Part shown: one piece after another, positions 55,091-59,358 of the stretch | How the letters are laid out: every line of letters begins with the position of its first letter | Numbering within the stretch: the stretch's first letter is position 1 | Source: Akkermansia muciniphila | GTDB taxonomy: Bacteria > Verrucomicrobiota > Verrucomicrobiia > Verrucomicrobiales > Akkermansiaceae | Assembly (NCBI RefSeq): GCF_002884975.1 | Contig: NZ_PJKB01000003.1 | Span: 226,743-290,742 of the forward strand | Direction of reading: 5' to 3' | Length of the DNA: 64,000 bases | Position numbers and translations under genes: made by a program | The notes under the pieces: generated by a model | The model's database searches: none | Told to the model about the DNA's origin: nothing | What the model saw: the letters and a program-made list of their open reading frames with translations, nothing else

Positions 55091-58000
55091 ATGAAATTAA
55101 GACTCCCACATATGCTGCTGGCAGCGGTGATCGCCTGCCTCGGTAGTTTATCCGTTGCTACCGCAGCCAACTACACAGCCAACAGCGCCGATACATTCGT
55201 TACGGCCTGGAACGAGGCTGCCGCTTCCAATGAAGCATCAACCATCATTATCACTCCGCCGGCAGGTTCCGACAACATTACGCTGACCCAGGAACAACGG
55301 GCCCAGCTGAATGCCATCTCCGGAACGGGCAATGTGACCGTCCAGATGACGGATGCCAGCGGCAAATTAGTCAATTTCAACTATGATCTGGTTAATGGTC
55401 AGGTCAGCTTCAACGACATCACGCTGAGCGAACCCCTGGGAAGCGACAATGACATCCTGGTGACAAACGCCACGAACACCACCACCATTGACGGCAGGAA
55501 CATCGCCATTGAAGGCACGAATGACGCCGCCAATCCCAAGACGGTCGGCGCCACCGTCACTTCCACCAATGGGCAGGTAGGCATCGGCGACAACGTCACC
55601 ATGGAAAAAGCCGTGACCGTCACCGGCCAGGCAGCCCACACGGTGGACCCCGCCACGCCCCCGGCAGGCCAGGCCTACACCAGGACGACGTACGACACCT
55701 ACAATAATTCCAACGAACAGGCTGTGGTCCTGGGCAACAACGTCACCATGCAGGACACCGTGACGGCTACCGGCCAGATCACCAGCGATCCGGATGCCAA
55801 AGTTACGCTGAACGGAGACGTGACCTCCACGGCGGGAATCGGCACCGTGACTACGGAACAATTTGACGCGGGTAACAACCAGAACAGCAAAACCGTCATC
55901 GACTCCATGGATGACAGCATTTCCGGCGGCATCATCCTTGGTGAAACCACGGCCGGAGCCATCGACATCAAGGCCCAGGGCGGCCATATTTCCCTGGGAG
56001 ACAACACCGTCCTGAACGGCACCACCGTTTCCGCGGAATCCATGGACCTGAACAAGACCGTCTACAGCAATGATGACGGCAACTGGAACACCGTCGTGGG
56101 CACGGAAAAGCTGGACACCATTGAAGGCAGCATCACGCTGGGCAATAATACCACCGTCAAGGGGAACACTACCCTGACGGCGGACGACAACATTGCCATC
56201 GGCAAAGACAGCGTGGTCACCGGCAATACCACTGCTGACGGCGTAATCAACGCGGGAGGCCAAATCTCCATCGGAGACGGCGCCCAGGTTGTAGGCAACA
56301 CCACCACCAACGCCGGCAAGGCCGCCATCAACCTGGCGGACGGCCAGACCCTGTACATCGGTTCCGGCGTAATTCTTTCCGACAACACGTCCAACGGCGT
56401 CCTCGGTTCCGTGCATGCGGGCCAGAACACCCAGATCAACGTTTATACGGACGGGACCGCCTACACCTTCATCAATGACGGCATTGACACTGCGGCGCCC
56501 GCAGCCCCCACGGCTGATCCGGCCCCGCTGGCCGCTGACCAGACTGTCATGACGAAGACCGGCACGGGCACCCTCGTCTACGGCAGCGGCGAAGCCACCG
56601 ATACGTTCGGAGGCACCTACCAGCAGCTTGAAGGGAACCTGATCATCGGCCACGCCACCTTCGGCACTGTGGACGCCGCTACCGGAAAGGTCGGCCCCCT
56701 CCAGTCCATCGGCGCCGCCGTGATGGGAACGGATGATACCGTTTATGACATCCGGACTGGGCAGGTGACTCTGGCGCAGAACTCCACCATGAAGGGGGCT
56801 TCCGCCACCTTCGGCGGTGATTCCACCCTGCTGCTGAGCGACGGCTCCGTGCTTGACTTCGGCACCCCCGCCACGTTCACGGATAATTCCCGCGTGGGCA
56901 TCCAGGTATCCGACGCCACGGGCAACCCCGTGCCGATCGCCCAGCTGAAGAAGGGCTCCGAAAGCGTAAATGTTACGCTGAACGGCACGGATATTTCCGG
57001 ACGCCTGCTTAACAACCTCTTCCTGACCACCACCATGGCTCCGGGAACGACGGAAGGCACCACCACCCTCACCCAGACCATGAGGGGCATTGACGGACCC
57101 ATGTCCGGCTACAACGGCAACGTTTACACCGTAGCCGCGGCCCTGGAAAACAACCGCCTGAACGTGGCCGCCGGTTCTCCCGCCGCCCAGTTCTATGAAA
57201 CCCTGCTGCGCGTGACGGACCCGAATGAAGCTGCCAACATGATTCAGTCCGTCAGCGGTGAAAACGTGATGAACTTCGCGTGGGCCGCCAGCCGTACGCT
57301 GAGGAGCTTCGCCGACCTGGGCCGCATCCAGTCCGCCGCGTCCATGGCGCGCCAGACGGAATCCACCATTGAAGTGGTGGACGCCAAGGGCTCCCCCATC
57401 GCCCGCAAGACGATTGCCCAGGGCAACGGCAACATCTGGGTAGGCGGCATGGGCAACTGGGATGACCAGGACGCCCGCGGAGGAATCTCCGGCTACAAGT
57501 ACAATGCAGGCGGCTATGCCGTGGGCATTGACTACAAGGCCGCCCAGGGTTCCCTGCTCGGCATTGCCGTAGGCCAGAGCTTCGGCGACATCAAGGACAA
57601 GAGCGGATTCGGCTCCGACTATGATGTGGATTCCTTCATGGCCATGATTTACGGCCGCATGCATCCCTTCAGGGAAAGCAAGTTCACGCTGGACGGCTAC
57701 GGCGCCTACGGACGTTCCAAGTTCAAGGGCAATTCCTACATCATGGGAACCGCCGCCAACGGCAATGAGAACGCGGACTCCTTCAGCGGCGGCCTGTACG
57801 CCACCTGGACGGAACATTTCGCCCTCGGCAAAGCCTTCGTGACGCCTTACACGGGTATCGAATTCATGACCACCGAGCTTAAGGGCTTCTCGGAATCCGG
57901 GCCTTACGGCCGTACGTTTGACCACGCCCGCGCCCAGAACTGGACCATTCCGTTGGGCGTGACCATCGCCCGCGCCTACCAGACGGACGGCGGCACCACC

Positions 58001-58249
58001 ATCACCCCGGCCCTGACGGTGGCCGCGGCGCAGGATGTGAGCCGCATGAATCCCAAGTCCAACGTCACCGGACCCCTGGGAGCCTGGAACGTGCGCGGCG
58101 TGAATGTGGGCCGTACGGCCTTCCGCCTGAACGCAGGTATTGACGTGCTCTTCTCCAATAACTGGGGCGCACGCATCTGCTACCAGTTCGAGACCCGCAA
58201 CAAGCTGACCTCCCAGGGCATCAACGGAGCCATCAGCTATACGTTCTAA
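55091..58249 (+). CDS. Autotransporter with beta-barrel domain
   Basis: 1052 residues. Signal peptide (LLAAVIACLGSLSVATA). The passenger (about 30-750) is rich in Asn, Thr, Gly and Ala and made of repeats like GSITLGNNTTVKGNTTLT and DNIAIGKDSVVTGNTT, a right-handed beta-helix pattern. The C-terminal autotransporter beta-barrel begins near 775 (GNIWVGGMGNWDDQDARGG) and ends in SYTF, with the terminal Phe needed for outer-membrane insertion. It is likely surface-exposed and may bind mucin or host glycans; that role is inference. A terminator follows. Confidence 0.93.
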   Translation: MKLRLPHMLLAAVIACLGSLSVATAANYTANSADTFVTAWNEAAASNEASTIIITPPAGSDNITLTQEQRAQLNAISGTGNVTVQMTDASGKLVNFNYDLVNGQVSFNDITLSEPLGSDNDILVTNATNTTTIDGRNIAIEGTNDAANPKTVGATVTSTNGQVGIGDNVTMEKAVTVTGQAAHTVDPATPPAGQAYTRTTYDTYNNSNEQAVVLGNNVTMQDTVTATGQITSDPDAKVTLNGDVTSTAGIGTVTTEQFDAGNNQNSKTVIDSMDDSISGGIILGETTAGAIDIKAQGGHISLGDNTVLNGTTVSAESMDLNKTVYSNDDGNWNTVVGTEKLDTIEGSITLGNNTTVKGNTTLTADDNIAIGKDSVVTGNTTADGVINAGGQISIGDGAQVVGNTTTNAGKAAINLADGQTLYIGSGVILSDNTSNGVLGSVHAGQNTQINVYTDGTAYTFINDGIDTAAPAAPTADPAPLAADQTVMTKTGTGTLVYGSGEATDTFGGTYQQLEGNLIIGHATFGTVDAATGKVGPLQSIGAAVMGTDDTVYDIRTGQVTLAQNSTMKGASATFGGDSTLLLSDGSVLDFGTPATFTDNSRVGIQVSDATGNPVPIAQLKKGSESVNVTLNGTDISGRLLNNLFLTTTMAPGTTEGTTTLTQTMRGIDGPMSGYNGNVYTVAAALENNRLNVAAGSPAAQFYETLLRVTDPNEAANMIQSVSGENVMNFAWAASRTLRSFADLGRIQSAASMARQTESTIEVVDAKGSPIARKTIAQGNGNIWVGGMGNWDDQDARGGISGYKYNAGGYAVGIDYKAAQGSLLGIAVGQSFGDIKDKSGFGSDYDVDSFMAMIYGRMHPFRESKFTLDGYGAYGRSKFKGNSYIMGTAANGNENADSFSGGLYATWTEHFALGKAFVTPYTGIEFMTTELKGFSESGPYGRTFDHARAQNWTIPLGVTIARAYQTDGGTTITPALTVAAAQDVSRMNPKSNVTGPLGAWNVRGVNVGRTAFRLNAGIDVLFSNNWGARICYQFETRNKLTSQGINGAISYTF

Positions 58250-58293: not shown

Positions 58294-58324
58294 CCCTTTC
58301 CCGCCTGGTGCGGGAAAGGGTTTT
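58294..58324 (+). terminator. Terminator after the autotransporter
   Basis: Perfect 11-bp stem (58294-58304 with 58310-58320), five-base loop, followed by TTTT at 58321-58324. It isolates the autotransporter from the PEP-CTERM gene. Confidence 0.92.
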
Positions 58325-58408
58325 CCGTGTGTTTCCACAGCGCATTCTGCCGCGCATTAAATCTTTTCTTTTAAAAACGGCATTCCCCGATAAATGGCTT
58401 CCGTCTTT

Positions 58409-58582
58409 ACGGATTTCCAATCCGGTTCACAGTTTATCGGAAAACAAATATCTCACATATAATGAATTATGAATTAATTAAATACCCCCGGCTCCTTTTT
58501 CCTTTAAACTTGTAATAAAGATATGTTCTTCTGATGTGTTCCTCCTTCAAACATTTGCATTGACCCCGGATTGGAAATCCGT
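58409..58582. repeat. 17-bp perfect inverted repeats flanking a 140-bp segment
   Basis: The sequence at 58409-58425 (ACGGATTTCCAATCCGG) is the exact reverse complement of 58566-58582. Each copy has its own dyad: CGGATT-TCC-AATCCG. The 140 bases between (58426-58565) are AT-rich and contain TATAAT at 58458-58463. This layout matches crossover sites of invertible promoters; operator pairs or alternative RNA folding are other options. No recombinase gene is in the window. Confidence 0.75.
58458..58463 (+). promoter_or_regulatory. -10-like TATAAT inside the invertible-looking segment
   Basis: A perfect TATAAT at 58458-58463 facing the PEP-CTERM gene. No good -35 is found 16-19 bases before it. 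If the segment can flip, this would be the element switched away from the gene. Confidence 0.4.
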
Positions 58583-58614
58583 TATCCGTGTCCTTGTTAA
58601 AGTATCTGTTAAGC

Positions 58615-59358
58615 ATGAAGCTATCTACATTCTGCATTTTATGCTGCCTGTCCGCGGGGATTTCCCAGGCCGCCACTTACGTCTGGAGCGGAGCGGCAGG
58701 AAACGGGATTTACGGAGATTCCAATAACTGGACCGTGAACGGCACGCCAAACGGCTATTATCCGCAGCACAGCACCAATGACAACGCCGTCATTGGGGAA
58801 GATGCCGGAACCGTTACATGGTCCACCGCCCAATCCTTTTTCGGCGCCACCAATACGGTCCAGATCGGTTCCGGAAGCACCCTGGTCTGCACCACCACGA
58901 TAGGGGACCTTAACGTCAATTCCTTTAAGCTGGACGGCAATTCCCAACTGGTATTCGAATCTACCAACGCCTTTGGGCTGGGCCGCGACTTTACGCTGGA
59001 CTTCGGCACCTTTTCTGCAGCGGAACACGGTTCCTGGGTTGCCACGGACCTCACCAACTTCTGGACCAACGGAAAGACCGTCACCTTCACCGGCACGCTG
59101 GACATGAACAGCCTTTCCGGAAGCGGCACCATTGAACTGGCTTCCATCAAATCCGGCCAGCAGGGAGGCAATCTCAACCTGGACCTGAGCGGACTGAACA
59201 TCGCCAGCAACTCCCAGGTTCATGCGACTGTAACGCAGGTCACGGAAAACGGCGTTACCAAGGTGCTCGTGAACTATGAAACCGTTCCGGAACCCGCAAC
59301 GGCTACGCTGAGTCTCCTGGGACTGGGCGCCCTGCTGTTAAGAAGAAAGAGACAGTAG
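58615..59358 (+). CDS. PEP-CTERM-sorted secreted protein
   Basis: 247 residues. Signal peptide (STFCILCCLSAGISQA). The body has TYVWSGAAGNGIYGDSNNW, typical of autotransporter-associated beta-strand repeats seen in Verrucomicrobia. The C-terminal tail VPEPATATLSLLGLGALLLR with RRKRQ is a PEP-CTERM signal: a PEP motif, hydrophobic helix and basic end, processed by an exosortase. It is likely exported to the cell surface or outer-membrane exopolysaccharide. ATG at 58615 is preferred to GTG at 58588. Confidence 0.9.
   Translation: MKLSTFCILCCLSAGISQAATYVWSGAAGNGIYGDSNNWTVNGTPNGYYPQHSTNDNAVIGEDAGTVTWSTAQSFFGATNTVQIGSGSTLVCTTTIGDLNVNSFKLDGNSQLVFESTNAFGLGRDFTLDFGTFSAAEHGSWVATDLTNFWTNGKTVTFTGTLDMNSLSGSGTIELASIKSGQQGGNLNLDLSGLNIASNSQVHATVTQVTENGVTKVLVNYETVPEPATATLSLLGLGALLLRRKRQ

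Follow-up and report, generated by a model that had tools for sequence, protein, structure and literature searches.

An inverton with a putative mobile −35 element upstream of a PEP-CTERM gene in Akkermansia muciniphila

The locus

A perfect 17-bp inverted repeat lies in the 365-nt gap between an autotransporter gene and a PEP-CTERM gene of Akkermansia muciniphila, within the window (the whole 64,000-nt stretch of contig NZ_PJKB01000003.1 that was analysed). The question it raises is whether the repeat flanks DNA that is inverted to switch the PEP-CTERM gene and, if so, which part of the promoter moves and which enzyme moves it. The locus is read here, with a probability of about 0.85, as an inverton in which a mobile −35 element would switch the PEP-CTERM gene, with the tyrosine recombinase L069 as the most likely enzyme. 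The features, in window coordinates, are as follows.

55091–58249, + strand: autotransporter gene (1052 aa, PF03797), the upstream neighbour, which ends before the switch
58294–58320, + strand: 11-bp hairpin followed by TTTT, which probably terminates transcription of the autotransporter gene
58409–58425, + strand: left recombination site ACGGATTTCCAATCCGG, arms CGGATT and AATCCG, centre TCC
58426–58565, no strand assigned: AT-rich invertible segment of 140 bp; its sense is opposite in genome G010 and, judged by which end carries TTGAC, in the diverged G001 and G012
58549–58556, + strand: A/T tract AAACATTT resembling an UP element, upstream of the −35; function putative
58560–58565, + strand: putative −35 hexamer TTGACC, which forms the right-hand edge of the invertible segment and adjoins the site
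58566–58582, − strand: right recombination site, an exact inverted copy of the left, which would double as the 17-bp spacer between −35 and −10
58583–58588, + strand: −10-like hexamer TATCCG, fixed outside the segment, a weak match to TATAAT
58615–59358, + strand: PEP-CTERM protein gene, an open reading frame of 247 aa from the ATG at 58615, PF07589 above cut-off; the putative switched gene

The preliminary description had held that the repeat is longer than chance would give and that each copy is dyad-symmetric about an asymmetric 3-base centre, and both statements are borne out: in 100 dinucleotide-preserving shuffles of the gap no inverted repeat exceeded 12 bp (mean of the longest, 8.1), whereas the real gap holds one of 17 bp, and each copy reads CGGATT-NNN-AATCCG. 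The gene behind the switch is a surface-protein gene of the PEP-CTERM type, in keeping with the Akkermansia CGGATT..AATCCG invertons. The hairpin assigned to the autotransporter gene is absent from the list of a strict terminator scan.

Orientation of the segment in related species

Between unchanged flanks, the 140-bp interior reads in one direction in G000 (the genome of the locus), G008, G009 and G004, and in the opposite direction in G010. Where the interiors have diverged, the end carrying TTGAC is on the gene side in G005, G006 and G007, and on the far (left) side in G001 and G012, the orientation of these last two being read from the position of that end. The centres at the locus vary by species (TCC, CTC, CCC); the two copies agree in every case. 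Both orientations are thus found between species, and this comparison of assemblies confirms the locus as a genuine inverton; switching within one population is considered likely. The phase-variable switch of a PEP-CTERM surface protein proposed in the preliminary description is therefore upheld, as the interior occurs both ways round among related species and the site is a published inverton motif.

A putative promoter divided by the recombination site

At the locus TTGACC, the 17-bp site and TATCCG follow one another without a gap, upstream of the ATG, and the same register recurs at related sites. In G000, a single base separates TTGAC from the 17-mer at 27 of 76 inner ends, with 0–1 of 76 at each of the other offsets from 0 to 11; allowing at least four of its five letters, it is present at exactly one end in 32 of 38 pairs and at both ends in none. 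In G001, G004 and G008, whose pairs are partly orthologous between genomes, 30 of 43 pairs have it at a single end and 1 pair has it at both ends; overall, 18 of the 81 pairs lack a clear TTGAC where it would adjoin the site. On the outer side, the flank starts with TA at offset 0 at 26 of 76 ends in G000 and 35 of 86 in the other three genomes (2–7 at other offsets), and the TA sides face an outward gene in 24/26 and 32/35 cases respectively. Among relatives, the right end of the interior, ...TCAAACATTTGCATTGAC, is conserved; the fixed −10-like hexamer appears as TATCCG, TATGTG, TACCCG or TACATC; and in the family consensus an AAAATTT tract precedes the −35, spaced from it much as AAACATTT is at the locus.

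As read from these placements, the promoter is split: inversion carries the −35 along, the −10 stays fixed outside the segment, and the 17-bp site forms the spacer between them, an arrangement unlike that of a classical invertible promoter, which lies wholly inside its segment. The preliminary description had placed a TATAAT facing the gene in the AT-rich interior; both are present (TATAAT at 58458–58463), and the role of this hexamer as the −10 is rejected, since its equivalents in relatives differ (TGATAAT, GGATAAT, AATAAAT, ATGAAT). TATCCG matches TATAAT at 3/6 positions and a sigma-70 consensus scan found no promoter at the locus, so transcription from the putative promoter is a point that we infer. 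The rule of TTGACN, site and TA makes ON and OFF states readable from sequence alone at most loci; in a count confined to pairs that have a −35 at one end and a gene clearly on one side, the assemblies hold 12 ON and 6 OFF in G000, and 5 ON and 14 OFF in the other genomes.

The proposed mechanism is that the locus toggles the PEP-CTERM gene by relocating its −35 element. In the ON state, the orientation seen here, TTGACC and the A/T tract upstream of it would be held against the right site, which would act as the spacer to TATCCG as the −10. A recombinase, most likely the stand-alone L069 (363 aa), would bring the two sites together and exchange strands within the 3-nt centres, which would have to match. 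After the flip TGTGAA would replace TTGACC beside the −10, and the −35 would be directed at the left site, the flank of which has no −10-like hexamer; the gene would be OFF. The same design is proposed for about 40 loci before PEP-CTERM proteins, autotransporter-type proteins and capsule or glycan enzymes. Site pairs, matching of centres, orientations across species, placement of −35 and −10, and co-occurrence of enzyme and sites were read directly from sequence.

The genome-wide set of sites and the putative switched genes

Further copies of the site, for which the preliminary description had suggested a search of the genome, are abundant: the 2.9-Mb genome G000 holds 63 exact CGGATTNNNAATCCG sites, while a control pattern read backward gives 0 exact sites there. 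About 40 switches (~38 CGGATT-NNN-AATCCG site pairs) are recognised in G000, and the locus, having paired inverted sites with CGGATT and AATCCG arms, is one of them. Of 23 pairs of adjacent exact sites 100–600 bp apart, 22 share one centre, inverted in one site relative to the other, and 17 centre types are represented; permutation of the centre labels gave a mean of 0.65 and a maximum of 5 matching pairs. Equal centres within a pair are what strand exchange in the centre requires, and are not required of a regulator site or an RNA hairpin. The sole exception consists of two neighbouring invertons, each with a true partner that carries one mutated arm.

The genes on the TA side were judged by eye (the Pfam scan was of window genes only); about half of the 25 in G000, a few of which may not be genes, end in a PEP-CTERM signature of the VPEPATA..LLGL..RRRR type. 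Others start with signal sequences of the MKLHLP or MRLHLP type that belong to autotransporter-like proteins, and several resemble capsule sugar transferases or glycosyltransferases. A broader reading, in which these ~40 split promoters form a genome-wide surface regulon with the site as −35/−10 spacer, all thrown by one tyrosine recombinase descended from local modules of recombinase plus inverton, a family spread across the genus in which sites and enzymes diverge together, is considered fairly probable. Switching of this kind would explain how cells of one strain of Akkermansia, a major mucus-dwelling commensal, could differ in surface.

Two arrangements in G000 depart from the simple pair. 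A recurrent spacing of ~2.0 kb between sites with unequal centres was set aside as a unit in its own right, being two adjacent invertons before consecutive glycan genes; at C3:373260–375600 (L018, L019, L229) two successive invertons, with one mutated arm each, precede consecutive glycan/glycosyltransferase genes. At C2:651526–651721 (L215) the left site is doubled, with two overlapping CGGATTTGGAATCCG copies 13 bp apart facing one right site; a doubled left site of this type is also present in G004.

The candidate recombinase L069

The preliminary description had looked to a site-specific recombinase nearby; the best candidate, L069 (also L121), is instead encoded on another contig (C1:895107–896195). 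Its gene is solitary, has an arginine decarboxylase-like gene in its vicinity, and was found to have no inverton beside it; the region is collinear in G000 and G009. It matches PF00589 with 38.2 bits (cut-off 27.1) and conserves R206, K233, R296, H319 and Y329 of the catalytic set R-K-HxxR-H-Y; the first His of HxxR is Asp293 in L069, the family having DxxR. A predicted fold of modest quality (pLDDT 71.9, pTM 0.55) matches lambda Int, Tn1549 Int and XerA, and a sequence search returned no relatives with solved structures; L069 is a putative recombinase.

Orthologs of L069 at ≥90% identity occur in exactly 12 of 76 genus genomes, all of which have 36–84 sites. Of the other 64, only G045 (88 sites) and G002 (22 sites) are site-rich; both lack a ≥90% ortholog and instead carry paralogs of ~45% identity, one of which in G045 adjoins CGGATT sites, so that another family member presumably acts in these two genomes. 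The 12 ortholog-bearing genomes probably form one clade, and the co-occurrence of L069 and sites is confounded by descent. G000 has nine tyrosine-recombinase matches; PF00589 genes number four in G009 (74 sites, one contig) and five in G008 (56 sites), and the tyrosine recombinases common to these two site-rich genomes are XerC, XerD and L069. L069 is thus the best candidate for throwing the CGGATT set genome-wide; if it is the enzyme, one deletion of L069 would lock many surface genes at once.

Other enzymes were considered and rejected. L063, a third XerC/D-like gene (G000 C1:1122022–1122990), occurs at ≥87% identity in only six motif-rich genomes and is absent from the site-rich G005, G006, G009, G010, G012 and G044. 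Serine recombinases (PF00239, the family of the invertases Hin, Gin and Mpi) are absent from G000 and nine other site-rich genomes, with a few in G009, G044, G045 and G046 only, and an IS110/Piv-type enzyme is present in 1 of 14 genomes (G044).

Paralogs of L069 bear on the function of the family. An inverton-like site pair lies just upstream of 38 of 78 L069-family paralogs, while 120 shuffled loci gave none and 30 Xer loci gave 3; the arms beside the paralogs vary (AGGATT..AATCCT, CGCATT..AATGCG, CGCTTT..AATCCG and others), and arm distance tracks protein distance (Mantel r 0.32, 0/2000 permutations). These own invertons, with arms that track the proteins, support the L069 family as inverton recombinases. 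In 21 of the 38 the TA flank is on the side farther from the recombinase gene, and in 3 on the nearer side, so that the modules look self-contained, each switching a divergent gene. L069-family genes beside their own variant-arm invertons were noted in many Akkermansia genomes (L151–L210, L135–L149); the divergent neighbours are often secreted proteins of the MKLHLP type, acyltransferase-like (L195, L205) or methylase-like (L186, L193).

Alternative explanations

Instead of serving recombination, the repeats could bind a dimeric regulator or be transcribed into a hairpin; in favour of such a reading, every copy consists of two 6-bp half sites in dyad symmetry, and promoters lie beside the copies. 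It gives no reason, however, for centres that are equal within each pair and co-vary between species, nor for reversal of the interior, and inversion at the CGGATT motif is reported for another Akkermansia locus (PMC13343947), with both orientations already reported from reads at other loci of this motif; this explanation is scarcely credible. A classical switch, in which a complete promoter using the internal TATAAT is flipped whole, is improbable, although that hexamer faces the gene and both fimS and the Bacteroides switches are usually built in this way: TATAAT is unconserved even in close relatives while the TTGAC at the segment end is conserved, and the register of −35, 17 bp and TA is fixed at the site edge across the 81 pairs.

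Inversion may also be the work of an enzyme other than L069, such as host XerC/XerD, a prophage integrase or a recombinase that escaped recognition, with L069 a passenger of its clade; XerC/XerD-like genes are genus-wide, G045 and G002 have many sites and no close L069 ortholog, and the co-occurrence follows a single clade. Such an enzyme is judged unlikely, as genomes poor in sites have XerC/XerD just as site-rich ones do, L063 and further integrases are lacking in site-rich genomes, and paralogs of L069 adjoin related invertons of their own.

Relation to known systems

Mpi of Bacteroides fragilis is a serine recombinase that inverts many surface-related promoters, each within its segment; the system proposed here would share the use of one recombinase for many such promoters and differ in its candidate enzyme, a tyrosine recombinase, and in moving the −35 alone. 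The fimS switch of E. coli, with FimB/FimE, is, like the system proposed here, a tyrosine-recombinase ON/OFF inversion before a surface structure; fimS is a single locus with adjacent recombinases and a complete promoter inside the segment, whereas here there are ~40 loci, a distant candidate and a mobile −35 alone.

The CGGATT..AATCCG motif and its inversion in Akkermansia were described by Jiang et al. 2019, as cited in PMC13343947, and invertons of this motif form inverton group 138, beside which PEP-CTERM genes are enriched, according to PMC11892184. These published invertons have the same arms, the same genus and the same intergenic invertible DNA as the locus, which is a new member of that set; no statement of a promoter split by the site was found in either paper. 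The new parts are the −35-only design and the recombinase candidate, and no description of a split promoter was found in the literature searched, outside of which lay the full text of Jiang et al. 2019. The cps1 inverton of A. muciniphila has the site motif of the locus and a different gene; its ON/OFF orientation tracks capsule in culture fractions and both orientations are found in mice and humans, its recombinase and promoter anatomy being unreported in the portion of PMC13343947 available. Invertase links are given for nine group pairs, with none described for group 138 in the main text of PMC11892184; as stated there, the Akkermansia motif 138-2 failed that paper's promoter criterion, a result that a segment carrying the −35 alone might explain.
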